DNA of 64,000 nucleotides, taken from NCBI RefSeq assembly GCF_015278315.1, contig NZ_JADIJE010000004.1:62001-126000 (forward strand), read 5' to 3'. Of this stretch, positions 196 to 59,564 are shown piece after piece (position 1 is the first letter of the stretch; every line of letters starts with the position of its first letter). The notes beneath the pieces are model-generated. The model made no database searches. It saw only the letters and a list, made by a program, of their open reading frames with translations, and was not told the origin of the DNA. This DNA is from Microbacterium ureisolvens. GTDB lineage: Bacteria; Actinomycetota; Actinomycetes; Actinomycetales; Microbacteriaceae. Both the position numbers and the translations under genes were made by a program.

Positions 196-241
196 GACGG
201 ATGCCCCGCCCCGGCGCAGTGCGCCGGGCGAGGCATCCGTC
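196..241 (-). terminator. Terminator hairpin after glgP
   Basis: A near-perfect palindrome has a perfect outer stem of 10 bp (196–205 with 232–241). The arms are the inverted octamer pair CGGATGCC / GGCATCCG. It starts 10 bases after the glgP stop codon. Confidence 0.75.
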
Positions 242-250
242 GTCCAGAAC

Positions 251-2812
251 TCAGGAGGCGTAGGTGACGAGCCCGAGCTCCACTGGTGACACGAGCTGCG
301 GGTGGTCGGGGCGCACGCGCACGGTGTAGCCGAACGTGCCGGTGACCGTGAGGGGCAGCGTGCCCGTGAACCTGCGCACGCCGTCGGGACCGTCGCCCGC
401 GAGCGACAGGCGGTACACCGAGTGATCGCGTGCGAGCGCGTCGTCTTCATCGGTGCGGCCGTAGAGCAGCTCGACCGCGACGTCGTCCGACGAGAGGCCG
501 TCGAGGCGGACGTCGGCGCGCACCTCGAGCACGTCGCCCGCCTGCGCCTGCTGCGGGATCCCGGAGCTGTCGACGCTGGCGATCGACACGCGGCTCCACG
601 CGCCCGTGACCCGGCTGACGAACGCCGCGACCGCGCGAGCCTGCGCGAACCCGTCGGCGCGCAGCGCGACATCGTGCGCGGCGGCCGGCACGTAAAGCCG
701 CTCGACGTAGTCGCGCACCATGCGGTCGCTCGTGGCCTTCTTGCCGAGGTCGGTCATGGTGTGGCGAACCATGCCGAGCCACGCGGTCGGGATGCCGCCC
801 TCGCGGTCGTAGAACTTCGGCACGAGCTGGTGCTCGATGAGGTCGTAGAGCGCCGCGGCCTCGGCGTCGTCGCGCTCCTCGTCGTTGGACGCGGTGTCGG
901 CCGTCGGGATCGCCCAGCCGTTCTGGCCGTCGAACCACTCGTCCCACCAGCCGTCGAGGATCGACAGGTTGAGCGCGCCGTTGAGCGCCGCCTTCATGCC
1001 GCTCGTGCCGCACGCCTCGAGCGGACGCAGCGGGTTGTTGAGCCACACGTCGCAGCCGGGGTACAGGTCCTTCGCGAGCGTGATGTCGTAGTCGGGCAGG
1101 AACACGATGCGCCCGCGCACCTTCGGGTCGCGGCTGAACCGCACGAGCTGCTGGATCAGGATCTTGCCCGAGTCGTCGGCCGGGTGCGACTTGCCGCCGA
1201 TCACGATCTGCACGGGGCGCTCGGGGTCGGTGAGCAGGCGCGTGAGCCGCTCGGGATCGCGCAGCATGAGCGTCAGGCGCTTGTACGTCGGCACGCGACG
1301 AGCGAAGCCGATCGTGAGCACCTCCGGGTCGAGCAGATCCTCCACCCACGAGGGGGTGCGGCCGCTGCCGTTTCCGGTGACGGATGCCGCGACCCGCCGT
1401 CGCGCTTCGGCGACGAGCTCGCTCTTCATCTGCTGGCGGACGCCCCAGAGCTCGGCATCCGTCACGATCGCGCGGTCGGTCCAGTCGTGCGTGTCGGTGT
1501 GGGCGTCGCCCCACGCGCGCTCACTCACGGCCTTCAGCGCCGGGTGCACCCACGTGGGTGCGTGGACGCCGTTGGTGATCGACGTGATCGGCACCTCGTC
1601 GGTGTCGACGCCGGGCCACAGCATGCCGAACATGCCGCGGCTCACCTCGCCGTGGAGCACCGAGACGCCGTTCGCGTGCTGGCCGAGGTGCAGGCCGAGC
1701 ACCGCCATGTTGAAGACGCCCTGGTCGCCGCCCGGGAAGGTCTCGAGGCCGAGGCTGATCGCCCGGCCCGCGTCGAGGCCCTGGAACAGGCCGCTGGTCA
1801 GCACGTCGGCGATGAGGTCGCGCGAGAAGCGGTCGATCCCGGCCGGGACCGGCGTGTGCGTCGTGAACACGGTGCCCGCCCGCACCTGGGCGAGGGCCTC
1901 GTCGAAGCTCAGGTGATCCTGCGTGATGAGCTCCGACATCCGCTCGAGGCCCTGGAAGCCCGCGTGGCCTTCGTTGGTGTGGTACACGTCGGGGGCCGGG
2001 CGACCCGACAGCTCCGACCACGCGCGCACCGCGCGCACACCGCCGACACCGAGGAGCAGCTCCTGCAGGAGGCGGTGCTCACCACCGCCGCCGTACAGGC
2101 GGTCGGTCACGCGACGCATGTCGTCGGAGTTCGACGGCGTCTCGGAGTCCAGGAGCAGGAGGGGGATGCGGCCGATGTCGGCGACCCAGACCCGGGCGTG
2201 AAGGCGACGGTCGCCCGGCAGGTCGAGCGCGATCTCGACGGGCGCGCCCTCGCGGTCGCGCAGCAGGGTCAGGCCGAGGCCATAAGGGTCGAGCAGCGGG
2301 TAGCTCTCACGCTGCCAGCCGTCGTCGCCGATCGACTGGCGGAAGTAGCCGGCGCGGTAGAAGAGCCCCACGCCGGTGAGCGGAACGCCCAGATCCGACG
2401 CACTCTTGAGGTGATCGCCGGCCAGGATGCCGAGGCCGCCCGAATACTGCGGCAACGAGCCGTCCACGCCGAACTCGGGGGAGAAGTACGCGATGTGGAC
2501 CGGCTTGTCGCCCTCGAGCCGCTGGAACCAGCGGTCGCCCTCGAGGTACGCGGTGAGGCGCTCGTCCTCCTCGCGGACGCGGGCGACGAACTCGTCGTCG
2601 CCAGCGAGCTCGTCGAGGCGCTCCTGGCCGAGCGCGCCGAGCATGCGGGCGGGGTTGGCGCCGATCTCGTCCCACAGCGCGGGATCCATCGAGGCGAAGA
2701 GGGAGTGCGTCGCGCGGCTCCACGACCAGCGCCAGTTGGAGGCGAGGCGGTCGAGCGGTGCGAGGGATTCGGCGAGGACGGGGCGGACGGTGAATGTGCG
2801 GATGGCCTTCAC
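251..2812 (-). CDS. glgP: Alpha-glucan (glycogen/maltodextrin) phosphorylase
   Basis: An 853-residue GT35 phosphorylase that releases glucose-1-phosphate from alpha-1,4-glucans with pyridoxal phosphate as cofactor. The N-terminus carries the DUF3417 region typical of this GlgP branch (LASNWRWSWSRATHSLF). The PLP-lysine signature EACGTSGMKAALNG is intact, with the lysine at about residue 607. An upstream open extension exists, but GTG 2812 is preferred because a TAGAAT -10 box ends 7 nt before it (leaderless), and extending further would overlap the divergent genes. It should work with the glucokinase at 19971 in glycogen and trehalose turnover. A terminator follows directly. Confidence 0.95.
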   Translation of the reverse strand: MKAIRTFTVRPVLAESLAPLDRLASNWRWSWSRATHSLFASMDPALWDEIGANPARMLGALGQERLDELAGDDEFVARVREEDERLTAYLEGDRWFQRLEGDKPVHIAYFSPEFGVDGSLPQYSGGLGILAGDHLKSASDLGVPLTGVGLFYRAGYFRQSIGDDGWQRESYPLLDPYGLGLTLLRDREGAPVEIALDLPGDRRLHARVWVADIGRIPLLLLDSETPSNSDDMRRVTDRLYGGGGEHRLLQELLLGVGGVRAVRAWSELSGRPAPDVYHTNEGHAGFQGLERMSELITQDHLSFDEALAQVRAGTVFTTHTPVPAGIDRFSRDLIADVLTSGLFQGLDAGRAISLGLETFPGGDQGVFNMAVLGLHLGQHANGVSVLHGEVSRGMFGMLWPGVDTDEVPITSITNGVHAPTWVHPALKAVSERAWGDAHTDTHDWTDRAIVTDAELWGVRQQMKSELVAEARRRVAASVTGNGSGRTPSWVEDLLDPEVLTIGFARRVPTYKRLTLMLRDPERLTRLLTDPERPVQIVIGGKSHPADDSGKILIQQLVRFSRDPKVRGRIVFLPDYDITLAKDLYPGCDVWLNNPLRPLEACGTSGMKAALNGALNLSILDGWWDEWFDGQNGWAIPTADTASNDEERDDAEAAALYDLIEHQLVPKFYDREGGIPTAWLGMVRHTMTDLGKKATSDRMVRDYVERLYVPAAAHDVALRADGFAQARAVAAFVSRVTGAWSRVSIASVDSSGIPQQAQAGDVLEVRADVRLDGLSSDDVAVELLYGRTDEDDALARDHSVYRLSLAGDGPDGVRRFTGTLPLTVTGTFGYTVRVRPDHPQLVSPVELGLVTYAS

Positions 2813-2819
2813 GCACGCG

Positions 2820-2825
2820 ATTCTA
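2820..2825 (-). promoter_or_regulatory. -10 box of glgP (leaderless)
   Basis: TAGAAT on the minus strand lies 7 nt before the GTG start, so the transcript should begin at or next to the start codon. Confidence 0.55.
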
Positions 2826-2845
2826 GGGGGAGAAGCTGGAAGCGC

Positions 2846-3112: not shown

Positions 3113-3773
3113 CGAGTCCCCGACGAAGGCCGCCGGCGGGGGAACCGCGGACGGCGAGGCGTCGCACAGCGTCGAGATCGAGCTGAAATTCGACGTCGAC
3201 GACCCCACGCCGCTGCCCGACTGGTCGACCTTGCCCGGTGTCGCCCGCGTGGGCGAACCGGAACCGCGCGACCTCGACGCGCAGTACTTCGACACCGACG
3301 ACCTCTCGCTGGCCCACGCCGGGTACGCGGTGCGCCGCCGCACCGGCGGACCCGACGAGGGCTGGCACATCAAGGGACCCCGCCGCGCCGACGGCGGCCG
3401 GGTGGAGCTGCACTGGCCGCTCGGACCCGCGGGTGAGATCCCGCAGGGGATCGCCGACGCGATCTCGTCCCTCGCATCCGTGACCTCGCTCACGCCGATC
3501 GCGCGCATCCGGAACAGCCGGACGGCCTACGCCCTGCAGGACGCGGCGGGTGGCGTGGTCGCCGAGTTCGTCGACGACCGCGTCAGCGCGAACGACGAGC
3601 GCGCGGGCGTCGAGCGTGCCTGGCGGGAATGGGAGTTCGAGCTCGGCCCCGCGGCGCCTGCCTGGCTGGAGGAGCGGCAGGCGCTCTTCGCCGCCGCCGA
3701 GAAGGCGGTGCACGCGGTCGGCGGCCGGCCCGCGGCATCCGATTCCAAGCTCGCCCGCACTCTCGGGCACTGA
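3099..3773 (+). CDS. CYTH domain protein (triphosphate tunnel metalloenzyme family)
   Basis: A 224-residue protein of the CYTH/TTM superfamily, whose members hydrolyse inorganic triphosphate, thiamine triphosphate or related substrates with divalent metal. After a disordered 22-residue start, the signature ExExK appears as EIELK near residues 28–32. The basic and acidic strand residues of the tunnel follow (YFDTDDLSL, AVRRRTGG, WHIKGPRR). The actual substrate cannot be read from sequence. The GTG start at 3099 overlaps the previous gene. A 15-bp bidirectional terminator separates it from lpdA, which converges on it. Confidence 0.85.
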   Translation: MSAADESPTKAAGGGTADGEASHSVEIELKFDVDDPTPLPDWSTLPGVARVGEPEPRDLDAQYFDTDDLSLAHAGYAVRRRTGGPDEGWHIKGPRRADGGRVELHWPLGPAGEIPQGIADAISSLASVTSLTPIARIRNSRTAYALQDAAGGVVAEFVDDRVSANDERAGVERAWREWEFELGPAAPAWLEERQALFAAAEKAVHAVGGRPAASDSKLARTLGH

Positions 3774-5240: not shown

Positions 5241-5933
5241 GTGGTCGGCCGGGGGCTCGGAGCCGGGCCCCGAGGCCCCTCCGGACGCCTGCTCGCGGGC
5301 CGCGTCGAGGTCCTTCTCGCGCCGTGCGCGCGAGAGCAGGAGGTAGGCGACGGCGCCCAGCACGCCGAGCGCGATGATGCCGAAGATCACCCAGGGCCAG
5401 GCGTCGGCGGAGGAGGAACCGGCGTCCTCCGGCTCGAGCGCGGTGGCAGTGGGGGTCGGCGTCGCGGTCTCGACGGGAGCAGTCGTCTCGGTGGGCGCCG
5501 GCGACGCCGTCTCGGTCGGGGTCGGCGCGGGTGCGCCCTCGACGGTGAACGAGAACTCGCCCGAGATGGGGTGCCCGTCGCTCGAGACGACCTTCCACAG
5601 CACGGTGACGGCACCGGATGCCTCGCCCGTGAGCGGCTGCGTCAGCACGTTGTCGCGGACGGTCGGCGTGCCGCCGGCGAGCGAGGTGCCCGCGGCATCC
5701 GTCACCTCCACGACCGAGGCGCCCTCGTCGTCGGCGATCTCGGCGCTGAAGGTGAGCGCGAGCTCGGTGGGAAGCGCCGCCACCGTGCTGCCGGCGGCGG
5801 GATCGCTGCCCAGCAGCTCGTCGTGGGCGCTGGCGGGGGAGGCCGTCGCGAGCACGACGCCGAAGGCGGTGAGAACGGCGGCGACGAGCACTCCGAGCCG
5901 GGCTGCGAGGGGCTTGTGAAGAGTTTGTGACAT
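5238..5933 (-). CDS. copC: CopC domain secreted/membrane-anchored copper protein
   Basis: A 231-residue protein with a Sec signal peptide ending TASPASA before HDELLGSDPAAGS. This places a histidine at the mature N-terminus, as in CopC copper-binding proteins. The CopC beta-barrel covers roughly residues 37–135 and includes SSDGHPISGEFSF. A Pro/Thr-rich linker follows, then one transmembrane helix (about 185–205) and a basic cytoplasmic tail, so the domain is displayed outside the membrane. The ATG at 5933 follows a TAGGCT -10 box by 10 nt. It is divergent from the Met/Cys-rich copper-storage-like gene, which suggests shared copper control. Confidence 0.88.
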   Translation of the reverse strand: MSQTLHKPLAARLGVLVAAVLTAFGVVLATASPASAHDELLGSDPAAGSTVAALPTELALTFSAEIADDEGASVVEVTDAAGTSLAGGTPTVRDNVLTQPLTGEASGAVTVLWKVVSSDGHPISGEFSFTVEGAPAPTPTETASPAPTETTAPVETATPTPTATALEPEDAGSSSADAWPWVIFGIIALGVLGAVAYLLLSRARREKDLDAAREQASGGASGPGSEPPADH

Positions 5934-6504: not shown

Positions 6505-6855
6505 TCAGCCGCGCAGGACGTTGAACCGCGCGCCGCCGACGGCGAGCACGTGGTAGCGCTCGTGCAGCGCAACCGGCGTGCCGGGCGTCGCGGCCGCGGC
6601 CGCCCCCGTGCCGTTCCACAGCGCGACGGCCGACCAGTCCGCAAGGGTGCGGACGATCACGAAGCCCGAGCGCGGGTCGGATGCCTCGACGATCGCGTCC
6701 GCCCAGTCCGACGGCGTCGCCGCGGCCAGGCGCGCCTGGATGAGGTGCAGCGCGTGGCCCGGCGCGAACGAGGAGCAGGTGTCACCGTGGTCGCACATGC
6801 ACGCCGCACGCTCACGCACCTCGAGGGGCGGGATGTGGCTGTGCGGGCTGGACAC
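6505..6855 (-). CDS. Hypothetical protein with N-terminal Cys cluster
   Basis: A 116-residue soluble protein that I do not recognise. Near the N-terminus it has CMCDHGDTC, which could bind a metal. The rest is an alpha/beta stretch with DWADAIVEASDPRSGFV and ends HVLAVGGARFNVLRG. The GTG start at 6855 has a good ribosome site (AAGGAG, about 6 nt away), and TAGCCT lies about 40 nt upstream. It converges on the copper-storage-like gene; whether it takes part in metal handling is unknown. Confidence 0.65.
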   Translation of the reverse strand: MSSPHSHIPPLEVRERAACMCDHGDTCSSFAPGHALHLIQARLAAATPSDWADAIVEASDPRSGFVIVRTLADWSAVALWNGTGAAAAATPGTPVALHERYHVLAVGGARFNVLRG

Positions 6856-7523: not shown

Positions 7524-8215
7524 TGCCCGCGGCATCCGCCCAGGAAAGGGCGTCGTCCGCGGGTCTTCTCAGCATCGGGCAGGTTCTGGCTCGGCTTTCG
7601 CCGGAGTTCCCGTCCCTCACCTCCAGCAAGCTGCGCTTCCTCGAGGTGCAGGGCATCGTGACGCCGCTGCGCACCGAGTCGGGCTACCGCAAGTTCTCGC
7701 AGGACGACCTGGAGCGGCTGCGGCTCGCGCTCACCCTGCAGCGCGACCACTACCTGCCGCTGTCGGTCATCCGCGAGTACCTGGAAGACGTCGACGCGGG
7801 GCGCGACCCCGCGACGCCGACCGCGGTGCCGCCGCCGTCGATCGTGCCGGCGCCGCGGCGCTACCGTCGCGACGAGCTGCTCGCCGCCGCCGGGGCGGCT
7901 CCGCAGCTGCTCAACGACGCGATCAGCACCGGCATCATGGCGGGGGCGGAGTCGTACACCGAGCAGTCGGTCACGCTCCTGCGGGCGCTCGTCGCACTCG
8001 ATCGCCACGGCATCGAGCCGCGTCACGTCCGCGCGCTGCGGCAGAGTGCGGAGCGGGATGTCGCGCTCGTCGAGTCGGCGCTGGCGCCATTGCTGCGGCG
8101 GACGGATGCCTCGTCCCGCGGCCGTGCCGGTGAACTCGCACCGGAGCTGACCCGGCGTCTGGACGATGTGCGCGCGATCTTCGTGCGCTCGGCGCTCGAC
8201 CGCATGCTGTCCTGA
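7523..8215 (+). CDS. ftsR: MerR-family regulator FtsR
   Basis: A 230-residue MerR-family DNA-binding protein. The N-terminal winged helix is at about 15–85 (SIGQVLARLSPEFPSLTSSK, LRFLEVQGIVTPLRTESGYR). A second helical part (about 105–190) probably dimerises and senses an unknown signal. The Corynebacterium homologue encoded next to odhI activates ftsZ, and the Mycobacterium equivalent is Rv1828. Coupling to garA (1-nt overlap) supports the identification. FtsZ is encoded 37 kb downstream in this window and is a plausible target. Confidence 0.85.
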   Translation: MPAASAQERASSAGLLSIGQVLARLSPEFPSLTSSKLRFLEVQGIVTPLRTESGYRKFSQDDLERLRLALTLQRDHYLPLSVIREYLEDVDAGRDPATPTAVPPPSIVPAPRRYRRDELLAAAGAAPQLLNDAISTGIMAGAESYTEQSVTLLRALVALDRHGIEPRHVRALRQSAERDVALVESALAPLLRRTDASSRGRAGELAPELTRRLDDVRAIFVRSALDRMLS

Positions 8216-10877: not shown

Positions 10878-10902
10878 CGGATGCCGCCGGGCGCGGCATC
10901 CG
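10878..10902 (-). terminator. Terminator after parA
   Basis: A perfect 10-bp stem (10878–10887 with 10893–10902) and a 5-nt loop, made of an inverted CGGATGCC/GGCATCCG pair, 7 nt after the parA stop. Confidence 0.75.
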
Positions 10903-11790: not shown

Positions 11791-14700
11791 ATGTTTACGA
11801 AGATTCTCGTTGCAAACCGTGGTGAGATCGCCATCCGAGCCTTCCGGGCCGCATACGAACTCGGGGCGCGCACCGTCGCGGTGTTCCCGTTCGAGGACCG
11901 TGGCTCCCTGCACCGCCAGAAGGCTGACGAGTCCTACGAGATCGGCGAGAAGGGGCATCCCGTCCGCGCCTACCTCGACGTCGACGAGATCATCCGCGTC
12001 GCCAAGGAAGCGGGCGCCGACGCGATCTACCCGGGCTACGGCTTCCTCTCGGAGAACCCCGAGCTCGCAGAGAAGGCCGCGGCGAACGGCATCGCCTTCA
12101 TCGGACCGCCGGCGAAGGTGCTCGAGATGGCCGGCAACAAGGTCACCGCCAAGCAGCACGCGGTCGCCGCAGGCGTGCCGGTGCTGCGCTCGACCGAAGC
12201 GTCCGACGACGTCGACGAGCTGCTCGGCCAGGCCGACGAGATCGGCTTCCCGATCTTCGTGAAGGCCGTCGCCGGCGGAGGCGGACGAGGGATGCGGCGC
12301 GTCGAGCGCCGTGAGGAGCTCGCGCCCGCGCTGTCCGAGGCCATGCGAGAGGCGGGCAGCGCCTTCGGCGATGCGCGCGTGTTCCTGGAGCAGGCGGTGC
12401 AGCGTCCACGCCACGTCGAGGTGCAGATCCTCGCCGACGGCACGGGAGAGACCGTTCACCTCTTCGAGCGCGACTGCTCGGTGCAGCGCCGTCACCAGAA
12501 GGTGATCGAGATCGCCCCGGCCCCCAACCTCGACCCGGAGGTGCGGGACGCCCTGCACGGCTACGCCGTCGCCTTCGCGCGCTCCATCGGCTACGAGAAC
12601 GCCGGGACTGTTGAGTTCCTGCTCGAGACCGCCGGCCCGCGCACCGGCGAGGTCGTGTTCATCGAGATGAACCCGCGCATCCAGGTCGAGCACACCGTCA
12701 CCGAGGAGGTGACGGACGTCGACCTCGTGCAGTCGCAGATGCGCATCGCCGCGGGGCAGACGCTCGCCGATCTCGGCCTCACCCAGGACCAGATCCAGCT
12801 GCGGGGTGCCGCGCTGCAGTGCCGCATCACGACGGAGGATCCGTCGCAGGGGTTCCGTCCCGACACCGGGCGCATCACGACCTACCGCTCGCCGGGCGGT
12901 GCCGGCATCCGCCTGGACGGCGGCACGACCGCGGCAGGCTCGCAGATCAGTCCGCACTTCGACTCGATGCTCGCGAAGCTCACGTGCCGAGGTCGCGACT
13001 TCCCGGCCGCCGTCGCCCGTGCGCGGCGCGCGCTGGCGGAGTTCCGCATCCGCGGCGTCGCCACCAACATCCCGTTCCTGCGCGCGGTGCTCGACGACCC
13101 GGCATTCGTCGCGGGCGACGTGAGCACGTCGTTCATCGACGAGCGCCCGCAGCTGCTCACGAGCAATCCCTCGCGCGACCGCGCGACGAAGCTGCTCGCC
13201 TGGCTCGGCGACGTCACGGTCAACCGTCCCTACGGCGAGAAGCCGCTGGCCGTCTCGCCGGGCAGCAAGCTGCCCGAGATCGACCTGGCGGTCGCGCCGC
13301 CGGCGGGCACGCTCGACCGGCTGCGCGAGCTGGGCCCCGAGGGCTTCGCCCGCGCGCTGCGCGAGCAGAGCGCCCTGGCCGTCACCGAGACCACCTTCCG
13401 CGACGCCCACCAGTCGCTCCTGGCGACGCGCGTCCGCACGCGCGACCTCGTGCGGGTCGGTCCGCACGTGTCGCGCATGACGCCGCAGCTGCTCTCGGTG
13501 GAGGCCTGGGGCGGCGCCACCTACGACGTGGCCCTCCGCTTCCTCGCCGAAGACCCGTGGGAGCGGCTCGAAGCGCTGCGCGAGGCGATGCCGAATATCC
13601 CGATCCAGATGCTCCTGCGCGGTCGCAACACCGTCGGCTACACGCCGCGTCCCGTCGAGGTGACCGACGCGTTCGTGCGCGAGGCCGCCGCGACCGGCGT
13701 CGACATCTTCCGGATCTTCGACGCGCTGAACGACGTCTCGCAGATGCGACCGGCGATCGACGCGGTGCGCTCCACCGGCACGGCGATCGCCGAGGTGGCG
13801 CTCTGCTACACCTCCGACCTCCTCGACCCGTCGGAGCGGCTGTACACGCTCGACTACTACCTGCGCTTCGCGGAGCAGATCGTCGAGTCGGGGGCGCACA
13901 TCCTCGCCATCAAAGACATGGCGGGCCTCGTGCGCCCGGCGGCCGCGGCCAAGCTCGTCACGGCGCTGCGCGAGAACTTCGACCTGCCGGTGCACCTGCA
14001 CACGCACGACACCGCGGGCGGCCAGCTCGCCACGCTCCTGGCGGCCAGTGCCGCAGGAGTGGATGCGGTGGATGCCGCGGCCGCACCCATGTCGGGAACC
14101 ACGAGCCAGCCGTCGCTCTCGGCGCTCGTGGCCGCGCTCGCGCACACCGACCGCGACACGGGCCTGAGCCTCCAGGCCGTGAGCGACCTCGAGCCGTACT
14201 GGGAGGGCGTGCGCCACCTGTACCGCCCGTTCGAGTCCGGTCTGGACTCGCCGACCGGGCGCGTGTACCACCACGAGATCCCGGGCGGCCAGCTCTCCAA
14301 CCTGCGCCAGCAGGCGATCGCGCTGGGTCTGGCCGACGACTTCGAGCTGATCGAGGACATGTACGCCGCGGCGGACCGCATCCTCGGCCGCATCCCCAAG
14401 GTCACGCCGTCGTCCAAGGTCGTCGGCGACCTCGCGCTCGCGCTCGTGGCGGTGCGCGCCGATCCGGCCGACTTCGAGGCCAACCCGCAGAACTACGACA
14501 TCCCCGACTCGGTCGTCGGCTTCATGGCGGGCGAGCTCGGTGACCTGCCGGGCGGATGGCCCGAGCCCTTCCGCACGAAGGTGCTGGCGGGCCGCACGAT
14601 CTCGATCGACATCCCGCCCCTCACCGCCGACGAGCAGGAGGGCCTCGCCGGCGACGCCGCGACGCGCCGACGCACCCTGAACCGCCTGCTCTTCCCCGGT

Positions 14701-15198
14701 CCCGCCCGCGAGTTCGAGAAGAACCGCGAGACGTACGGCGACCTGGCCGCCCTCGGCACGCCGGACTACCTCTACGGCCTCAAGCCGGGGGAGGAGCACG
14801 TCGCCGAGATCGACCCGGGCGTACAACTGTATGTGGGACTCGAGGCGATCGGCGAGGCCGACGCCAAGGGCATCCGCACCGTGATGACGACCTTGAACGG
14901 CCAGCTCCGGCCGGTCTTCGTGCGTGACCGCAGCATCAAGGTCGAGACGCGCCAGGCCGAGAAGGCCGACACGTCCAAGCCGGGTCAGGTGGCCGCGCCG
15001 TTCTCGGGAGTGGTCACCCTCAAGGCGAACGTGGGCGACACCGTCGCGGCGGGCCAGCCGGTCGCGTCGATAGAGGCCATGAAGATGGAGGCGGCGATCA
15101 CCGCTCCCGTGGACGGCGTCGTCGAGCGGCTCGCGATCGCCGAGACCGCCCAGGTCGACGCCGGCGACCTTTTGGTCGTCATCCGTCCCGCCCAGTAG
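11791..15198 (+). CDS. pyc: Pyruvate carboxylase
   Basis: A 1135-residue biotin enzyme that makes oxaloacetate from pyruvate, bicarbonate and ATP to refill the TCA cycle. Biotin carboxylase occupies about 1–450 (GGGGRGMRRV ATP loop, EMNPRIQVEHTVTEE). The carboxyltransferase barrel starts near 531 (ETTFRDAHQSLLATRVRT). The PYC/OADA domain lies at about 820–1020. The C-terminal biotinyl domain carries EAMKME with the biotinylated Lys1098. Length is standard for the single-chain form. A GGAGG ribosome site fixes the ATG. The TAG stop is also the start of the -10 box of the next gene. Confidence 0.97.
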   Translation: MFTKILVANRGEIAIRAFRAAYELGARTVAVFPFEDRGSLHRQKADESYEIGEKGHPVRAYLDVDEIIRVAKEAGADAIYPGYGFLSENPELAEKAAANGIAFIGPPAKVLEMAGNKVTAKQHAVAAGVPVLRSTEASDDVDELLGQADEIGFPIFVKAVAGGGGRGMRRVERREELAPALSEAMREAGSAFGDARVFLEQAVQRPRHVEVQILADGTGETVHLFERDCSVQRRHQKVIEIAPAPNLDPEVRDALHGYAVAFARSIGYENAGTVEFLLETAGPRTGEVVFIEMNPRIQVEHTVTEEVTDVDLVQSQMRIAAGQTLADLGLTQDQIQLRGAALQCRITTEDPSQGFRPDTGRITTYRSPGGAGIRLDGGTTAAGSQISPHFDSMLAKLTCRGRDFPAAVARARRALAEFRIRGVATNIPFLRAVLDDPAFVAGDVSTSFIDERPQLLTSNPSRDRATKLLAWLGDVTVNRPYGEKPLAVSPGSKLPEIDLAVAPPAGTLDRLRELGPEGFARALREQSALAVTETTFRDAHQSLLATRVRTRDLVRVGPHVSRMTPQLLSVEAWGGATYDVALRFLAEDPWERLEALREAMPNIPIQMLLRGRNTVGYTPRPVEVTDAFVREAAATGVDIFRIFDALNDVSQMRPAIDAVRSTGTAIAEVALCYTSDLLDPSERLYTLDYYLRFAEQIVESGAHILAIKDMAGLVRPAAAAKLVTALRENFDLPVHLHTHDTAGGQLATLLAASAAGVDAVDAAAAPMSGTTSQPSLSALVAALAHTDRDTGLSLQAVSDLEPYWEGVRHLYRPFESGLDSPTGRVYHHEIPGGQLSNLRQQAIALGLADDFELIEDMYAAADRILGRIPKVTPSSKVVGDLALALVAVRADPADFEANPQNYDIPDSVVGFMAGELGDLPGGWPEPFRTKVLAGRTISIDIPPLTADEQEGLAGDAATRRRTLNRLLFPGPAREFEKNRETYGDLAALGTPDYLYGLKPGEEHVAEIDPGVQLYVGLEAIGEADAKGIRTVMTTLNGQLRPVFVRDRSIKVETRQAEKADTSKPGQVAAPFSGVVTLKANVGDTVAAGQPVASIEAMKMEAAITAPVDGVVERLAIAETAQVDAGDLLVVIRPAQ

Positions 15199-42138: not shown

Positions 42139-42200
42139 AAGTGTGCGGTCGAGCCCCGAGCGGCCCAGCGCGCCGGGGCCGCGGCATCCGTCGCCCAACT

Positions 42201-46146: not shown

Positions 46147-46827
46147 GTGCTCGCGGAGCGCCTCGCGGCGATCGATGAGCGGATAGCGGATGCCGCACGC
46201 GCGGCGGGCCGCGATCCGTCCGAGCTCACCCGCATCGTGGTGACGAAGTTCCATCCCGCCGCGCTCGTCGAGGAGCTGTACGCCCTCGGTGTGCGCGACG
46301 TGGGGGAGAACCGGCAGCAGGAGTTCAGCCGCAAGGTCGGCGAGGTCGGACCCCTCGCCGGCCTGCGCTGGCACTTCATCGGACAGGCGCAGACGAACAA
46401 GGCGCGGGCGATCCGGGGCGCGGCATCCGTCGTCCACTCGCTCGACCGCGCGCGCCTCGCCGACGCGCTGCACGCGGCCGCCGAGCCAGGGGAGGCCCCG
46501 CTCGACGTGCTGCTGCAGGTGAACCTGACGGACGACCCCGGCCGCGGCGGTGTCGCTCCCGACGAGCTCGAAAGCCTCGCGACGCACGCCGCAGGGCTCG
46601 CTTCTCTCCGCGTCCGCGGAGTCATGGCGGTCGCCCCGCTCGACGAACCGCCGGCCCCCGCCTTCGAGCGGCTCGCCCGGCTGGCGGGCGTCGTGCGCGG
46701 CGTCGTGCCCGACGCCGACTGGATCTCCGCGGGCATGACCGCGGACTTCGCCGAGGCGATCGCCGCGGGCGCGACACACCTGCGGATCGGATCGGCAATC
46801 ACCGGCCCCAGACCAGAACGCGGTTAA
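46147..46827 (+). CDS. YggS-family PLP homeostasis protein
   Basis: A 226-residue PLP-binding TIM-barrel protein (YggS/PROSC family) that balances free pyridoxal phosphate; the family shows no clear enzymatic activity. The PLP lysine is in [10 protein letters not shown], and [24 protein letters not shown] and [20 protein letters not shown] are typical. GTG 46147 abuts the ftsZ stop with no gap, so it is translationally coupled. The yfiH-like gene found here in mycobacteria is absent. Confidence 0.92.
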
Positions 46828-49157: not shown

Positions 49158-50078
49158 GTGGAATCGCGGAGCCTGCCCGTTCCCGACGGCCTCGACGGCG
49201 CGCGCGTCGACGCGGCGCTGGCGAAGATGCTCGGCTTCTCGCGCACCTTCGCGGCAGAGATGGCCGAGGCCGGCGGCGTGACCATGGACGGACGCACCCT
49301 CGCCAAGTCCGACAAGCTCCGCGGGGGCGCGTGGCTGGAGGTCTCGTGGGCGCCGAAGGAGGAGCCCCGGGTCATCCCGGTCGACGTGCCCGAACTGGGT
49401 ATCGCGTACGACGACGACGACATCGTCGTCGTGGACAAGCCTTCCGGCGTCGCCGCCCACCCCTCGCTCGGCTGGGAGGGTCCCACGGTGCTGGGCGCCC
49501 TCGCGGCCGGCGGGTTCCGCATCGCGACGACGGGCGCCGCCGAGCGTCAGGGCGTGGTGCACCGCCTCGACGTCGGCACCAGCGGACTGATGGTGGTCGC
49601 CAAGACCGAGCGCGCCTACGTCGCGCTCAAACGCGCCTTCAAAGAGCGCGAGGTCGAGAAGATCTACCACGCCGTCGTGCAAGGACACCCCGACCCGCTC
49701 GTCGGCACGATCGACGCGCCCATCGGCCGCCATCCGTCGCACTCCTGGAAGTTCGCCGTCACCCACGACGGCAAGGACTCCGTCACCCACTATGAGACGC
49801 TCGAGGCGTTCCCCGGCGCCTCCCTGCTGGAGATCCACCTCGAGACCGGGCGCACGCACCAGATCCGCGTGCACATGGCCGCGCACCGGCATCCGTGCGT
49901 CGGCGACCCCCTTTACGGCGCCGACCCGACGCTGTCAGCGCGCCTCGGCCTCACCCGGCAGTGGCTCCACGCGCGCGAGCTGTCGTTCGAGCACCCGACC
50001 ACGGGGGAGTGGGTCACGTTCACCTCGGACTACCCGGCCGACCTCGCCCACGCGCTCGACGTGCTGCGCGGCGACTGA
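49158..50078 (+). CDS. rluD: 23S rRNA pseudouridine synthase (RluD/RluA family)
   Basis: A 306-residue enzyme with an N-terminal S4 RNA-binding domain ([21 protein letters not shown]) and a RluA-type catalytic domain with [18 protein letters not shown], where the Asp is catalytic. The C-terminal [13 protein letters not shown] and [10 protein letters not shown] are typical. It converts uridines of 23S rRNA helix 69 in relatives. GTG 49158 follows lspA by 1 nt, the common lspA–rluD pair. Confidence 0.95.
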
Positions 50079-50577: not shown

Positions 50578-50707
50578 CGGGCGGTCGGCCCGGCACCGGC
50601 GCGGGTCACCGAGGTGCCGACACGTGATGCCGACCGTGTTGCGGACACGGGACGCCGACGTGCCGACGCCGATGCGGGATGTCGGATGCCTCGGGCAGAG
50701 TGTCGTC

Positions 50708-51287: not shown

Positions 51288-51737
51288 GTGAACGAACTCC
51301 TCCGTCGCCGCCTCGCGCGCGCCAACACCCTCTACCTCGACGTCGTCGACGCGGTCACCGCCGACCAGCTCGGCTCGCGCCTGGCAGACCTTCCGTCCGA
51401 CACGTTCGGCCATCAGCTGTGGTGCGTGCTCGGCGCGCGCGAGAGCTACCCGCGTGCCGCCCGGGCGGGGGAGTGGCAGGGGTTCACGAGTCCCGTCACT
51501 GCGGAGGAGACGACGGATGCCGCAGCCCTGCGCGCCGCCTTCACGCAGACCGCGTCGGACGTGGACGCGTGGATCGCGGGGCTCGACGCCGAGGACGAGA
51601 CGTCCTTCACCTACGCCCTCGCGCTCCTGGAGCACGAGACGCAGCACCACGGTCAGCTGATCCGCTTCCTGTACGGACTGGGCATCGAGCGGCCGGAGTC
51701 GTGGCAGCGGCAGTACGCCCTCGACGAGGAGTTCTGA
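51288..51737 (+). CDS. DinB/YfiT-like four-helix protein
   Basis: A 149-residue protein with the DinB-like four-helix pattern. Likely metal-binding histidines are in SDTFGHQLWCVLGARESY and EHETQHHGQLIRFLYG. Members include thiol-dependent transferases, but many have no known activity, so none is assigned. GTG 51288 is preferred over TTG 51279 because the -10 box TAGCTT ends 7 nt upstream and overlaps the earlier codon. Confidence 0.82.
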   Translation: MNELLRRRLARANTLYLDVVDAVTADQLGSRLADLPSDTFGHQLWCVLGARESYPRAARAGEWQGFTSPVTAEETTDAAALRAAFTQTASDVDAWIAGLDAEDETSFTYALALLEHETQHHGQLIRFLYGLGIERPESWQRQYALDEEF

Positions 51738-51892: not shown

Positions 51893-54800
51893 GTGGCATC
51901 CGACTCCTTCGTCCATCTGCACGTTCACAGCGAGTACTCGATGCTCGACGGGGCGGCCAAGATCGGCGCCATGACGCAGGCCGCTGCCGAGTACGGGATG
52001 CCGGCGATCGCGGTCACCGACCACGGCAACACCTTCGCCGCATTCGAGTTCTACCGGGCCGCGCAGGCCGCCGGCGTGAATCCGATCATCGGGCTCGAGG
52101 CCTACGTGACCCCGGGCACGCATCGCAGCGACAAGTCGCGTGTGGCGTGGGGCACGCCCGAGCAGAAGAGCGACGACGTCTCGGGCTCGGGCGCGTACAC
52201 CCACATGACCCTGTGGAGCGAGAGCACCGCGGGCATGCACAACCTCTTCCGGCTGAGCTCGCTGTCGAGCATGGAGGGGTATTACTTCAAGCCGCGCATG
52301 GACCGTGAGCTGCTGCAGACGTACGGCAAGGGGCTGATCGCCACCACCGGCTGCCCCTCCGGCGAGGTGCAGACCCGCCTGCGGCTCGGGCAGTACGACG
52401 CCGCGCGCGCGGCGGCGGCGGAGTTCCAGGACATCTTCGGCAAGGAGAACTACTTCGCCGAGATCATGGACCACGGGCTGCCGATCGAGCGGCGGATCAT
52501 GTCCGACCTGCTTCGGCTCGCGAAGGATCTCGAGATCCCGCTCGTCGCGACCAACGACTCCCACTACACGCACCAGCACGAAGCCGACGCGCACGCCGCG
52601 CTGCTGTGCGTGCAGTCCGGCTCGACGCTCGACGACCCCAACCGGTTCAAGTTCGACGGTGACGGCTACTACATCAAGACCGCGCAGGAGATGCGTCAGC
52701 TGTTCCGCGACCATCCCGAGGCGTGCGACAACACGCTCCTCATCGCCGAGCGGTGCAAGGTCGAGTTCAACACGTCGGCGAACTACATGCCGCGCTTCCC
52801 GGTGCCCGACGGCGAGACCGAAGACAGCTGGCTCATCAAAGAGGTCGAGCGCGGCCTGCACTACCGGTACCCCGGCGGCATTCCCGACAAGGTCCGCAAG
52901 CAGGCCGAGTACGAGACCGGGATCATCCTGCAGATGGGCTTCCCCGGGTACTTCCTGGTGGTCGCCGACTTCATCAACTGGGCGAAGGACCACGGCATCC
53001 GCGTGGGGCCGGGACGCGGTTCGGGTGCGGGATCGATGGTCGCCTACGCGATGAAGATCACCGACCTCGACCCCCTCGAGCACGGCCTGATCTTCGAGCG
53101 GTTCCTCAACCCCGACCGCGTCTCGATGCCCGACTTCGACGTCGACTTCGACGACCGTCGCCGCGGCGAGGTGATCGATTACGTCACCGAGAAGTACGGC
53201 TCCGAGCGCGTCGCGCAGATCGTGACGTACGGCACCATCAAGTCGAAGCAGGCGCTGAAGGACGCCGGCCGCGTCCTCGGCTTCCCCTTCAGCATGGGGG
53301 AGCGCCTGACCAAGGCGATGCCGCCGCCCGTGATGGGCAAGGACATGCCGCTGGACGGCATGTTCGACCCGCAGCACCCGCGCTTCAAAGAGGCGGTGGA
53401 GTTCCGCACGCTCATCGAGACCGACCCCGAGGCGAAGACGGTGTTCGACCGGGCCCTCGGACTCGAGGGCCTCAAGCGCCAGTGGGGCGTCCACGCGGCT
53501 GGCGTGATCATGTCGTCGGAGCCGCTGCTCGACATCATCCCGATCATGCGGCGCGAGCAGGACGGCCAGATCGTCACGCAGTTCGACTACCCGTCGTGCG
53601 AGACCCTCGGGCTCATCAAGATGGACTTCCTGGGGCTGCGCAACCTCACGATCATCTCGGACGCGCTCGACAACATCCGGCTCAACCGCGGTGAGGAGCT
53701 CGACCTCGAACACCTCGCCCTCGAAGACCGTCCCGCGTACGACCTCCTCACCCGTGGCGACACGCTCGGCGTGTTCCAGCTCGACGGCGGGCCCATGCGG
53801 TCGCTCCTGCGCCTCATGAAGCCCGACAACTTCGAAGACATCTCCGCCGTCATCGCCCTGTACCGGCCCGGACCCATGGGTGCGAACTCGCACACCAACT
53901 ACGCGCTGCGCAAGAACGGGCTGCAGGAGATCACGCCGATCCACCCCGAGCTCGAGGAGCCGCTGAAGGACATCCTCGACACGACCTACGGCCTGATCAT
54001 CTACCAGGAGCAGGTCATGGCCATCGCGCAGAAGGTCGCCGGCTTCTCGCTCGGACAGGCCGACATCCTCCGCCGCGCCATGGGCAAGAAGAAGAAGTCC
54101 GAGCTCGACAAGCAGTACGAGGGCTTCTCAGGAGGAATGAAGGAGCGCGGGTTCGGCGATGCGGCGATCCAGGCGCTGTGGGACATCCTCCTGCCGTTCT
54201 CCGACTACGCCTTCAACAAGGCGCACTCGGCGGCCTACGGCCTCGTCTCCTACTGGACCGCGTACCTGAAGGCGCACTATCCCGCCGAGTACATGGCCGC
54301 CCTGCTCACGAGCGTCGGCGACTCCAAGGACAAGATGGCGGTCTACCTGAACGAGTGCCGCCGCATGGGCATCAAGGTCCTGCCGCCCGATGTCGGGCAG
54401 TCGATCCGCTACTTCGCGGCCGTCGATGAAGACATCCGCTTCGGCCTCGGCGCCGTGCGCAACGTGGGCGCCAACGTCGTCGACGCGATCGTCGAGGCGC
54501 GCACCGACACCACCTTCACGTCCTTCCACGACTTCCTCTCCAAGGTTCCAGTCCACGTCGCCAACAAGCGCACGGTCGAGTCGCTCATCAAGGCGGGGGC
54601 GTTCGACTCCCTCGGCTCGACCCGGCGCGCGCTCATGGAGGTCCACGAGGACGCGACAGAGGCTGCCGTGCTCGACAAGCGCCGCGAGGCCAACGGCGAG
54701 GTCGGCTTCGACTTCGACTCGCTGTGGGGCGACGACGAGCCGCAGCAGGCGGCGAAGGTGCCCGAGCGGCCCGAGTGGACGAAGAAGGACAAGCTCGCGT

Positions 54801-55532: not shown

Positions 55533-56648
55533 GTGACGGACGAGCAGCAGAGCGGGCCCACCGACGAAGCGCCGGCGGCCGACGAGGCGCCGCAGTACGG
55601 GGTCGGGCCGTTCTCCATCCGCGAGGTCGCCCTCGCGGGAACCTGGATCGTCGCGTTCGTCGTGTCGTTCTTCCCGATCTACGGCGAGGTCGGAAGCGGG
55701 CCCTCGGTCTGGAGCAGCGGCATCGACTGGGTGCTCACCATCGGTGTGCCGACGGTGGCCGTCTTCCTCGTCGTGCTCCGCCGTCTTTCGCCCCAGGGCA
55801 TCCGTCGCGTCGGATCGCTCGGCATCGACCAGTTCGCATCCGTCGCCTTCTCGGTCGCCACCGTCCTGTGGCTCACCATCATCTGGAACTCGTTCATCAC
55901 GCTGGCCAACCACCGTGAGTTCCTCGCGACCTGGGTCGTGTGGGTCGAGTTCTTCCTCATGCTGGCGGGCGTGCTGCTGACCGCCTTCGCCCCGTTCATC
56001 GCTCCGTTCGCGCAGGACTTCCGCGACCGGCCGGAGGTGCCCGCACACCGCAACGCGCGCCCCGTCCGTCCGGTTTCGCCGCGGCCCGCGCCGGTGCGTC
56101 CTGAGCCCGCCGAAGAAGCCGAGCCCGCGCCGTACGCCGAGGCCGCCCCCTACGCCGCCGGCGCCCCGTACACGGAGGGCGTCTTCGACGGCGCTCCGGC
56201 CGGGGCTTACGGCGCTCCCGGAGAGACCCGCGTCGATGAGCGGCCCGCCGAGGCTCGGGCATCCGACGACTTCACCACCACGGTGCTCCCCGTCGACCGC
56301 CAGGAGACCGACGTCGTCGCGCCGGACGAGATCATCGCCGCCGACCGCGACGTCGTCGAGGAGCCCCGCGCCACGGAGCCCGCACACGCACGCGAGTCGT
56401 TCGAGCACGTGGAGAACCCGTCATCGACCGTCGAGCCCGCTGCGGCGACCGCTCCGCAGCACCAGGCATTCTGGGCGCTCGTGCCCGAGGAGCGCGACGT
56501 CGTCGACGAGATCGGCATCCCCGTGTTCCGCATCGGCCCGACCGCGTGGGCGCTCGTGATCGAGGACCGCGGCGACGCGTTCGTCGTCCGTCACGAAGAC
56601 GGTCGCATCGGCTACCTGCACGACGTCTCCGGCGTCACGCGCGGCTGA
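55533..56648 (+). CDS. Membrane protein with long acidic cytoplasmic tail
   Basis: A 371-residue protein that I do not recognise. Residues about 28–165 contain four membrane helices (LAGTWIVAFVVSFFPIYG, VLTIGVPTVAVFLVVL, AFSVATVLWLTIIWNSF and VEFFLMLAGVLLTAFAPF). A long Pro/Ala/Glu-rich disordered tail ends in a small conserved region, FWALVPEERDVVDEIGIPVFRIGP…DAFVVRHEDGRIGYLHD, possibly a protein-interaction domain. It sits between dnaE and hisD. Confidence 0.78.
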   Translation: MTDEQQSGPTDEAPAADEAPQYGVGPFSIREVALAGTWIVAFVVSFFPIYGEVGSGPSVWSSGIDWVLTIGVPTVAVFLVVLRRLSPQGIRRVGSLGIDQFASVAFSVATVLWLTIIWNSFITLANHREFLATWVVWVEFFLMLAGVLLTAFAPFIAPFAQDFRDRPEVPAHRNARPVRPVSPRPAPVRPEPAEEAEPAPYAEAAPYAAGAPYTEGVFDGAPAGAYGAPGETRVDERPAEARASDDFTTTVLPVDRQETDVVAPDEIIAADRDVVEEPRATEPAHARESFEHVENPSSTVEPAAATAPQHQAFWALVPEERDVVDEIGIPVFRIGPTAWALVIEDRGDAFVVRHEDGRIGYLHDVSGVTRG

Positions 56649-56678: not shown

Positions 56679-58016
56679 ATGCTCCGGACGATCGACCTGC
56701 GCGGGCGCACGCTCTCTCCCGCCGAACTCCTCGCGACCGTTCCCCGTGCCGCAGCGGCACGCGAAGAGGCACTCACGACGGCCGCCCACATCGTCGACGA
56801 CGTCGCCGCGCGCGGCGAGGCCGCCCTGCGCGAGCAGGCCGAGCGATTCGACCGCGTGACGGAGCACGACATCCGCGTCCCCGCGGCGCACCTCGACGAA
56901 GCGCTCGCGGAGCTCGATCCGGATGTGCGCGCGGCACTCGAAGAGGCGATCCAGCGTGTGCGCGAGGCGTCCGCGGCTCAGGTGCCGGCGCCGACCGTGA
57001 CCGAACTCGGACCGGGTGCCCGCGTCACGCAGCGGTGGCAGCCGGTGCGCCGCGTCGGGCTCTATGTGCCCGGCGGCAAGGCGGTCTATCCCTCGAGCGT
57101 CGTCATGAACGTCGTGCCGGCTCAGGTCGCCGGAGTCTCCGAGATCGCGCTCGCATCACCGCCGCAGAGCGAGTTCGGCGGACGGGTGCACCCGGTGATC
57201 CTCGGGGCGGCGAAGCTCCTCGGCGTCACGGAGGTGTATGCGATGGGAGGGGCCGGAGCCATCGGCGCCCTCGCGCACGGTGTTCCCGCGCTCGGGCTCG
57301 AACCCGTCGACGTCGTGACCGGGCCGGGCAACAACTTCGTCGCGGCCGCCAAGCGTGCGGTGGCGGGAATCGTCGGGACGGATGCCGAGGCCGGCGCCAC
57401 CGAGATCCTCGTGGTCGCCGACGAGACCGCCGATGCCCGCCTGGTCGCAGCCGACCTCATCAGTCAGGCCGAGCACGACGAGCAGGCCTCCGCGGTGCTC
57501 GTGACGACGTCGGAGCGCCTCGCGGACGACGTCCTCGCGGACATCGGCCCACGAGCCGCGGCGACCCGGCACGCCGATCGCGTCGCCGCGGCGCTGGCCG
57601 GCCCGCAGTCGGCCGTGGTGCTCGTCGACGACCTGGCCGCCGCCACAGCGTTCAGCAACGCCTACGCCCCGGAGCACCTCGAGCTGCACCTCGCCGATCC
57701 GCGCCCCGCCGACTTCGTCCACGCGGGTGCCGTCTTCGTGGGCCCCGACTCCCCGGTGAGCCTCGGCGACTACCTCGCGGGCAGCAACCACGTGCTGCCG
57801 ACGGGCGGTCAGGCGCGCTACTCGTCCGGCCTCTCGGCCGCCACGTTCCTCCGGCCGCAGCAGGTCATCGAATACGACCGCGCGGCCCTCGCCGTCGTCC
57901 GCGACGCGATCGTCACGCTCGCCGAGGCCGAGGCGCTGCCTGCCCACGGCGAGGCCATCACGGTGCGGTTCACCGGTCGCCCTGCGCACGAGCCGGGCGC
58001 GGAGAACCCGGCGTAG
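56679..58016 (+). CDS. hisD: Histidinol dehydrogenase
   Basis: A 445-residue zinc enzyme that oxidises L-histidinol to L-histidine in two NAD-dependent steps. Landmarks: RVGLYVPGGKAVYPSSVVMN, VTGPGNNFVAAAKR, ADLISQAEHDEQAS (metal and catalytic residues), YAPEHLELH and SNHVLPTGGQARYSSG. It stands apart from other his genes here. The TAG stop begins the -10 box of nrdR. Confidence 0.97.
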   Translation: MLRTIDLRGRTLSPAELLATVPRAAAAREEALTTAAHIVDDVAARGEAALREQAERFDRVTEHDIRVPAAHLDEALAELDPDVRAALEEAIQRVREASAAQVPAPTVTELGPGARVTQRWQPVRRVGLYVPGGKAVYPSSVVMNVVPAQVAGVSEIALASPPQSEFGGRVHPVILGAAKLLGVTEVYAMGGAGAIGALAHGVPALGLEPVDVVTGPGNNFVAAAKRAVAGIVGTDAEAGATEILVVADETADARLVAADLISQAEHDEQASAVLVTTSERLADDVLADIGPRAAATRHADRVAAALAGPQSAVVLVDDLAAATAFSNAYAPEHLELHLADPRPADFVHAGAVFVGPDSPVSLGDYLAGSNHVLPTGGQARYSSGLSAATFLRPQQVIEYDRAALAVVRDAIVTLAEAEALPAHGEAITVRFTGRPAHEPGAENPA

Positions 58017-58520: not shown

Positions 58521-58525
58521 CCGGA

Positions 58526-58531
58526 TAGCCT
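58526..58531 (+). promoter_or_regulatory. -10 box of pyrD (leaderless)
   Basis: TAGCCT, 7 nt before ATG 58539. Confidence 0.5.
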
Positions 58532-58538
58532 AAGAGGG

Positions 58539-59564
58539 ATGTATCCCCTCCTCTTCCGCACCGTGCTGTCGCGCATGGATCCCGAGTCCGCCCACCACGC
58601 CGCGATGGCCGTGATCCGGGTGCTGGGAGTCCCGCCCTTCTCGTGGGCGGCTCGCGCCGTCACGCGGCCGGCCCCCGAGCTCGCGACCACGGCCCTGGGC
58701 CTGACGTTCGCCTCTCCCTTCGGCGTCGCTGCCGGCTTCGACAAGGATGTGAAGGGCGCCTCGGGCCTGTACGCTCTGGGGTTCGGCCACGTCGAGGTCG
58801 GGACGGTGACGGCGATCCCGCAGGACGGCAACCCGCGTCCGCGGCTGTTCCGCCTCATCCCCGACCGCGCCGTCGTCAACCGCATGGGCTTCAACAACCA
58901 CGGTGCCGAGGCCGCCGCCGCGCGCCTGCGCTCGTTGCGCAAGCGCTCGCGCCGGGCCGTGCTGGGCGTGAACATCGGCAAGAGCCGCGTGGTCGACGTC
59001 GCCGACGCGACCACCGACTACGTGCGCAGTGCCACCCTTCTCGCCCCGCTCGCCGACTACCTCGTCGTGAACGTCTCGTCGCCCAACACTCCGGGTCTGC
59101 GCGGGCTTCAGGCGGTCGAGACGCTGCGCCCGCTTCTGGAAGCGGTGCGCGATGCTGCCGGCTCCACCCCCCTGCTGGTGAAGATCGCCCCCGACCTGCC
59201 GGACGACGAGGTCGTCGCGGTCGCACGCCTGGCCGTCGATGCGGGCCTGGCCGGCATCATCGGGACGAACACGACGATCTCGCGCGAGGGACTCCAGACG
59301 GATGCCGCGACCGTCGCCGCCGCGGGGGAGGGCGGCCTCTCCGGCGCGCCGCTGCGGCAGCGCGCGCTGGAGGTGCTTCGGATCCTTCGCCAGACGGTGC
59401 CTGCCGACTTCTGCGTGATCTCCGTCGGTGGCGTGGAGACCGCCGCCCACGTGCAGGAGCGGTTGGATGCCGGAGCCACCCTCGTGCAGGGCTACACGGC
59501 CTTCCTGTACCGCGGGCCGCTCTGGGCGCGCCAGATCAACCGGGGTCTGGCCAAGCCGAGCTGA
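58539..59564 (+). CDS. pyrD: Dihydroorotate dehydrogenase (quinone, class 2)
   Basis: A 341-residue FMN enzyme of pyrimidine synthesis that passes electrons to the quinone pool. Class 2 marks: an N-terminal amphipathic membrane part (MYPLLFRTVLSRMDPESAHH), GVAAGFDKDVKGA, NRMGFNNHGAEA and NVSSPNTPGLRGLQ with the catalytic Ser. The end has VGGVETAAHVQERLDAGATLVQ. It converges on the DUF3043 gene. Confidence 0.96.
   Translation: MYPLLFRTVLSRMDPESAHHAAMAVIRVLGVPPFSWAARAVTRPAPELATTALGLTFASPFGVAAGFDKDVKGASGLYALGFGHVEVGTVTAIPQDGNPRPRLFRLIPDRAVVNRMGFNNHGAEAAAARLRSLRKRSRRAVLGVNIGKSRVVDVADATTDYVRSATLLAPLADYLVVNVSSPNTPGLRGLQAVETLRPLLEAVRDAAGSTPLLVKIAPDLPDDEVVAVARLAVDAGLAGIIGTNTTISREGLQTDAATVAAAGEGGLSGAPLRQRALEVLRILRQTVPADFCVISVGGVETAAHVQERLDAGATLVQGYTAFLYRGPLWARQINRGLAKPS

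Follow-up and report, generated by a model that had tools for sequence, protein, structure and literature searches.

Words by which bacteria recognise their own DNA during uptake have, to our knowledge, been recorded so far only in two Gram-negative families. The DNA uptake sequences (DUS) of Neisseriaceae lie on both strands and their inverted pairs serve as terminators, while the uptake signal sequences (USS) of Pasteurellaceae occur about once per kb. Here we describe an octamer, GGCATCCG (the cognate word is also written as GCGGCATCCGTC), that is strongly over-represented in a 64,000-nt stretch of the genome of Microbacterium ureisolvens (Microbacteriaceae; handle G000, 4.49 Mb). This whole stretch is called the window below, and G000 the own genome. 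We propose, with a probability of about 0.62, that GGCATCCG is a DNA uptake signal for natural transformation, which would mark own DNA in Microbacterium and many Microbacteriaceae.

The Neisseriaceae DUS is described as a word of 10–12 bases present in about 900–5,900 copies, with dialects sharing an invariant inner core. Two dialects can occur in one genome, some family members are without DUS, and the dialects hinder exchange between species (PMC3630211). The Microbacteriaceae word is similar in that it has 3,450 copies in the own genome (its dialect words about 780–3,180 in their own lineages), has core-sharing dialects and is missing from some family members. It differs in its hosts, which are high-GC Gram-positive bacteria, and in its core, GGATG/ATCCG as compared to CTG in DUS. 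Moreover, the Neisseria receptor is ComP, whereas the putative machine in Microbacteriaceae is a Tad pilus instead of a type IVa pilus. The Pasteurellaceae USS is reported to have a 9-base core with an extension and two dialects with a common inner core (PMC12616744). Unlike USS, the Microbacteriaceae word has an extension without A/T tracts and more dialects, which change within a genus, and it belongs to another phylum.

Two further systems are relevant. Transformation of Micrococcus luteus needs both tad clusters and is also served by comEA/comEC, a combination that is frequent in actinobacteria (PMC4322843); the expression 'uptake sequence' occurs 0 times in the text consulted. Like M. luteus, the own genome has comEA–comEC and two tad clusters. 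The second system is HIP1 of cyanobacteria, an octamer that is present in very many copies and in some genomes gives way to other words (PMC4390886), both of which it has in common with GGCATCCG. No uptake sequence for Actinobacteria or Microbacteriaceae was found in the titles and abstract beginnings of the open-licence literature searched, and within that literature the word family is undescribed. The original prediction likewise knew of no description in actinobacteria.

Abundance, form and coding context of the word

The window contains 54 exact copies of GGCATCCG between positions 198 and 59306, 29 on the plus and 25 on the minus strand. The original prediction had counted 53 (28/25), so that its strand balance stands and its count is one too low; its estimate of about 5 expected copies was also low, as a second-order Markov model of the window gives 8.1 and a 6.7-fold excess. 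The whole own genome has 3,450 copies (0.77 per kb; 1,761 forward and 1,689 reverse), 17.9 times the number of the reversed word, our composition control in whole-genome counts (193; 95 + 98). When z-scores were calculated for all octamers in a 0.40 Mb sample of the own genome, GGCATCCG and its one-base shift GGATGCCG took the top two places with both second- and third-order Markov models. In this sample 304 copies of GGCATCCG face 50 expected ones, and 10-mers are enriched up to 35-fold (GACGGATGCC, 125 vs 3.6 expected). The over-representation of GGCATCCG is real and larger than first seen.

The common extended form is GC-GGCATCCG-TC. An extended core had been claimed before; the extension exists and is partial, with G in 67% and C in 77% of copies on the left and T in 48% and C in 60% on the right. 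In full, this weaker extension of the flanks reads GG-Y-C-GC before the word and T-C after it. Among variants of CGGATGCCG in the own sample, substitutions within GGATG are at or below expectation, with one at 1.5-fold, while a T in place of either following C is found 2.9 times as often as expected, and several exchanges of the two end bases are 2- to 6-fold enriched. By this substitution pattern GGATG (CATCC) is the strict core, and its edges tolerate changes.

Most copies are in coding sequence: 210 of the 304 lie within the 332 genes called in the 0.40 Mb sample, which rules out an intergenic-only repeat family of the repetitive extragenic palindrome (REP) or bacterial interspersed mosaic element (BIME) kind. 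As had been claimed, two frames dominate, GAT-GCC with 73 and GCA-TCC with 62 coding copies, followed by GGC-ATC-CG with 37 and the other three frames with 38 together. The codons GCA and GAT are indeed disfavoured (6.4% of Ala and 17.3% of Asp codons, respectively), and the word nonetheless uses them 62 and 73 times. For a codon-aware control, synonymous codons were exchanged at random inside each gene, so that all proteins and codon counts stay the same. In 60 such shuffles GGCATCCG occurs on average 48 times in genes (sd 4.8) as compared to the 210 copies observed, and GACGGATGCC 3.5 times as compared to 81. Six one-off or reversed control octamers reach 0.5–1.2 of the shuffle expectation and the common composition word CGACGCCG reaches 1.5. 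Since the shuffles keep proteins and codon counts and yet yield 48 copies, GGCATCCG is independent of codon usage. The motif thus survived the comparison that the original prediction had set as its own refuting test.

The density is higher between genes than within them, 1.11 vs 0.64 per kb in the own genome and 1.12 vs 0.70 in G049, a relative with a closed, single-contig chromosome. A bias of copies towards gene ends is weak in the own genome, and none is clear in G049. Inverted pairs have a preferred orientation: within 40 bp, CGGATGCC..GGCATCCG is found 18 times and the opposite form 2 times in the own sample, and 15 vs 0 times in G049.

Distribution and dialects in Microbacteriaceae

A tree of HisD places the own genome inside Microbacterium, adjoining M. 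jejuense, M. ureisolvens and M. yannicii. The tree was used only for this placing, because dialect labels from a single 21-kb locus were too weak (28 of 73 loci without label). One record in it titled Planococcus sp. APC 4015 (L055) has its hisD locus inside Microbacterium and carries the GGATGCCG word; its assembly is probably mislabelled or mixed.

GGCATCCG is present in all 59 genomes of the genus sample at 0.09–1.04 per kb (densities here and in the class-wide sample are calculated, in the genus with rounded genome sizes). In the family sample of 249 genomes from 85 genera many are rich, for example G115 of genus g58 with 2,030 + 2,011 copies, and others are near background. Genus g52 is even depleted, with 22 + 21 copies vs 61 + 54 of the reversed word in G109. 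Two g52 genomes, G109 and G178, have GGCATCCG, AGCATCCG, GCCATCCG and CGCATCCG below the reversed control although ComEC is present, a natural negative. The class-wide sample of 197 genomes includes nine of the family; the other 188 reach at most 0.16 per kb (G470). High GGCATCCG density is therefore a Microbacteriaceae trait. The check in related genera called for by the original prediction shows the excess in many genomes of this family and low density in those other actinomycetes.

Over-represented words were searched for in samples of 20–60 kb from each of 43 further genomes. Several GGCATCCG-poor genomes carry a word that keeps ATCCG and has changed bases before it. The related words are AGC-ATCCG, GCC-ATCCG, CGC-ATCCG, AGG-ATCCG and GCGCCTCC, which reach about 780–3,180 copies in their own lineages, and most also exceed the codon control. 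Whole-genome counts on both strands were made for three words in 57 genomes. AGCATCCG has 1,308 copies in G050, where GGCATCCG has 557, and 354 in the own genome; it also reaches 1,028 in G042 and 849 in G005, both GGCATCCG-rich. AGGATCCG has 1,735 copies in G062, 872 in G057, 856 in G043 and 777 in G145 (own 270), and GCCATCCG 1,970 in G032 and 1,900 in G038, followed by 699 in G183 (own 290). In 31 genomes, CGCATCCG was counted 3,181 times in G054, 3,056 in G035, 2,602 in G084, 1,801 in G149, 1,643 in G131 and 1,395 in G160 (own 644). GCGCCTCC, which has only CTCC(G) in common with the other words, has 2,566–3,062 copies in each of the four g36 genomes examined (own 628). G103 follows among these 31 with 1,376 copies, a number below its reversed control.

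Synonymous shuffles (20) show the same host specificity. Observed and shuffled counts are 25 vs 2.4 for CGGATGCT in G050, 34 vs 9.2 for CGGATGGC in G032, 32 vs 3.0 for CGGATCCT in G062, 29 vs 5.7 for CGGATGCG in G149 and 33 vs 14.1 for CGGAGGCG in G093. The dialect CGGATCCG of G043, G057 and G092, with 20 vs 2.6 in G057 and 20 vs 3.5 in G092, is palindromic, and GGCATCCG and the dialect words in the whole-genome counts are asymmetric. Outside their own hosts most dialect words are near 1 in this control. Exceptions include CGGATGCG in G160 (20 vs 5.0), CGGATGGC in G054 (10 vs 2.6), CGGATGCT in G049 (36 vs 15.8) and G115 (6 vs 0.9), and CGGATCCT in G043 (16 vs 4.2). Dialects inside one family, mostly with a common core, are the architecture of the Neisseriaceae uptake sequences, and this is the strongest resemblance between the two.

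It is important to note the limited power of the 20-kb dialect samples, since no distinct word emerged from those of G002, G004, G022 and G248 despite 1,082–1,990 copies of GGCATCCG in these genomes. A 40-kb sample of G038 pointed to TGCAGGAC (13 vs 1.0), which has no obvious relation to the ATCCG words; GCCATCCG showed only in the genome-wide count. In G154 (genus g15) there is no ATCCG word and the palindrome GATCCGGATC occurs 12 times in 60 kb vs 0.1 expected. The similar ATCCGGAT is found 12 times vs 0.8 in L100, from a record named Frigoribacterium sp. JB110. G154 and G264 have a short ComEC open frame (574 aa) in which the Competence domain lacks its start. A direct comparison of M. ureisolvens with its relatives, made to see dialect replacement, gave too few sites.

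Hairpins, single copies and site retention

Four intergenic hairpins formed by inverted motif pairs had been predicted in the window at 196, 10878, 17949 and 23020, and all four exist, the last figure being the start of a longer stem. The pairs lie 6–28 bases from a called gene end, with folding energies between −24 and −50 kcal/mol. The pair of sites 198− and 232+ (198..239; −47.6 kcal/mol) forms a hairpin on the 3′ side of a minus-strand gene whose end is at 251, and that of 10878− and 10895+ (10878..10902; −24.2 kcal/mol) is 3′ of the minus-strand gene ending at 10909. Sites 17951− and 17968+ (17951..17975; −38.3 kcal/mol) fold between convergent genes, and sites 23033− and 23050+ (23033..23057; −50.4 kcal/mol) 3′ of the plus-strand gene ending at 23004.

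The remaining GGCATCCG copies of the window are on the plus strand at 1454..1461, 3734..3741, 5694..5701, 7531..7538, 12904..12911, 14869..14876, 17202..17209, 21638..21645, 21756..21763, 25332..25339, 28834..28841, 29392..29399, 29434..29441, 34357..34364, 34930..34937, 40636..40643, 42183..42190, 42327..42334, 44128..44135, 46422..46429, 49888..49895, 51895..51902, 52994..53001, 55797..55804 and 56258..56265. On the minus strand they are at 1381..1388, 5615..5622, 6678..6685, 8103..8110, 18602..18609, 20483..20490, 23174..23181, 26606..26613, 27620..27627, 31713..31720, 33642..33649, 37390..37397, 40545..40552, 40995..41002, 43836..43843, 44853..44860, 46187..46194, 50683..50690, 51514..51521, 57379..57386 and 59299..59306.

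The original prediction had suggested checking the conservation of motif sites between strains. In comparisons of Microbacterium loci of the GGCATCCG type (44 of 80 were used; the pairs are not independent), motif sites are kept exactly 1.36–1.75 times as often as composition-matched octamers at 80–91% identity. At 82–83% identity, for example, 1,433 of 3,259 motif sites are kept (44%) vs 25% of matched octamers. We read this as maintenance with turnover. The word thins out in three atypical pieces of own DNA: in the three lowest-G+C of 23 pieces of the own genome GGCATCCG is at 1.5–2.3 times expectation, as compared to 4.3–9.5 times in the other 20. L014, a low-GC and motif-poor own piece, has a ParA-like gene and mostly unrecognised proteins and looks like a plasmid or integrated element.

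Candidate machinery and alternative explanations

The competence genes asked about in the original prediction are present. In the own genome comEA and comEC lie between presumed leuS and holA (read by eye). Pfam models identify three N-methyl pilins together with PilD, PilM, PilO, PilT and PilB in a type IVa pilus cluster, whose pilN and pilC are assigned by position only; the cluster is located about 6 kb left of the window start (L189; G000 contig 30, 42001-62000). Its pilins are one pilA-like, two minor ones and one large pilin-like protein. There are also two Tad loci (L226/L227). The first is directly upstream of topA and has a TadE of the Rv3655c type; in the second, TadE- and Tad-domain proteins are accompanied by a Flp-sized protein of 67 aa that matched no Pfam or NCBIfam model. 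A PADLOC scan of one window protein gave no match.

Among 50 selected genomes, both motif-rich and motif-poor, all have ComEC, so ComEC is ruled out as a predictor of the motif. Type IVa PilB-type matches near E 1e-138 were found in 21 of the 50 and in 14 of the 20 strong-motif genomes, with only 31 candidates scored per larger genome. The six strong genomes in which this PilB was not found among the candidates scored (G042, G005, G115, G183, G137 and G199) include two of the richest in motif, G042 and G115, and they rule out the type IVa pilus as the necessary machine. T2SSE-family ATPases, on the other hand, are present in 50 of 50; those other than PilB we take, from size and score, to be Tad ATPases. 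Since type IVa PilB is missing from six rich genomes and T2SSE ATPases are in all, the Tad pilus is the candidate machine common to motif-rich genomes. By analogy with Micrococcus luteus, the uptake signal would probably be read by the Flp/Tad pilus.

If GGCATCCG is an uptake signal, a pilin would bind the word on free double-stranded DNA, and its pilus, of the Flp/Tad kind or, in genomes that have one, of the type IVa kind, would pull the bound DNA in. ComEA and ComEC would then pass one strand into the cell, and recombination would replace the homologous stretch. Word-bearing fragments would have the better chance of entry, so that word-bearing alleles would gain ground on those without it. 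Such molecular drive could build thousands of copies wherever coding constraint allows (1.1 per kb in intergenic and 0.64–0.70 in coding sequence), put inverted pairs to new use as 3′ hairpins, while newly arrived DNA would still have few copies. A changed receptor specificity would start a new dialect, after which the old word would decay.

Several observations speak against an uptake signal. ComEC is found also in genomes with little or no motif and type IVa PilB is absent from the six rich ones, so that no gene tested tracks the motif. In 10 of the 43 dialect samples no related word was found; by our reading of the samples these are G103, G109, G091, G177, G108, G074, G215, G076, G089 and G126, genomes with at most 0.16 copies of GGCATCCG per kb. 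The retention of sites is uneven below 80% identity (1.07, 1.54, 1.06, 1.04 and 1.31 in two-percent bins, 70–79). The case for thinning in foreign DNA depends on just three pieces, and these also have the lowest G+C; the contrast is weaker for GGATGCC (1.7, 2.3 and 3.1 vs 2.8–7.1 elsewhere). When 10 proteins from two of the low-G+C pieces were scanned, Pfam gave names to 3. Depletion of GGCATCCG in phages was not seen: three stretches of Microbacterium phages (80 kb) have a slight excess, 13 vs 7.0 expected, although two of the three look closely related and their hosts may use another dialect. Four stretches of Gordonia and Rhodococcus phages have 4 copies vs 8.1 expected.

Three other functions have to be considered. 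Chi sites are recombination hotspots read on one strand by RecBCD, AddAB or an AdnAB-like nuclease in double-strand break repair; species-specific versions are known, and Chi is expected to be oriented with replication. GGCATCCG has the octamer length of Chi and is likewise frequent in the genome, and the HIP1 paper counts Chi among over-represented short words (PMC4390886). The strands argue otherwise. When strands are assigned by GC skew, 145 of the 304 copies of the own sample (145:159) and 165 of the 321 of G049 (165:156) are on the G-rich one, far from a Chi-like bias. The halves of the G049 contig are not perfectly even (88:80 and 66:87), and GC skew is a noisy guide to replication, also in G049, which gives this test moderate power. 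Hairpin-forming inverted pairs and a change of dialect inside one genus are not expected of Chi either, and a Chi-type hotspot is unlikely. The original prediction had left room for a recombination or chromosome-organisation signal; the absence of a clear strand skew speaks against a recombination or segregation signal that is strongly oriented with replication.

The word could also be the site of an orphan DNA methyltransferase or an iterated word of the HIP1 type, kept for epigenetic or repair reasons. The D12 methyltransferase family (Dam) also takes in enzymes of the FokI and AlwI types, with GGATG and GGATC as their recognition sequences. HIP1 densities are similar or higher and some cyanobacteria swap the HIP1 word, at times together with a matching methyltransferase (PMC4390886); the dialect CGGATCCG is a palindrome. 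However, HIP1 is a palindrome discussed with methyltransferases in that paper, whereas GGCATCCG and the genome-counted dialect words are not palindromic. D12, the only methyltransferase class searched, turned up in 3 of 37 genomes, and the own genome is not among them. Its absence from the other 34 speaks against Dam/FokI-type methylation, and we consider this explanation quite improbable.

A role in chromosome organisation, with a nucleoid or condensation protein bound to the word, would fit the even spread in G049, where counts per 20 kb at 20 points have a variance/mean of 1.16, close to random; the first four points have somewhat more than their share (86 of 321 copies). Known chromosome organisers have tens to hundreds of sites and change slowly. 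The word changes its dialect within a genus and has no strong strand skew, which leaves this function little probability. That the word merely follows from codon, dipeptide or base composition, or from terminator hairpins, can practically be dismissed: two frames do dominate and pairs do act as 3′ hairpins, but the codon-aware control refutes such an artefact, most copies lie within called genes and dialect words exceed the shuffles mainly in their own hosts. Codon usage does not account for the word family.

GGCATCCG behaves as a DUS does in nearly all of the sequence comparisons, depletion in foreign DNA giving a mixed picture. Its resemblance to an uptake signal, the central claim of the original prediction, holds for density, strand symmetry, codon independence, frames, hairpins and dialects, from which we infer the function. 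Chances appear evenly divided that this is the first self-recognition uptake system outside Proteobacteria, with a Flp/Tad receptor, an ATCCG-anchored word and at least six dialects governing gene exchange within Microbacterium. If true, it would be a third, Gram-positive case with several dialects per genus, and the trait would have arisen independently. It would offer a fresh system for finding receptor rules, and selection and molecular drive could be told apart by comparing sister species with different words. Moreover, practical transformation of Microbacteriaceae would become possible by adding one short word to the DNA.

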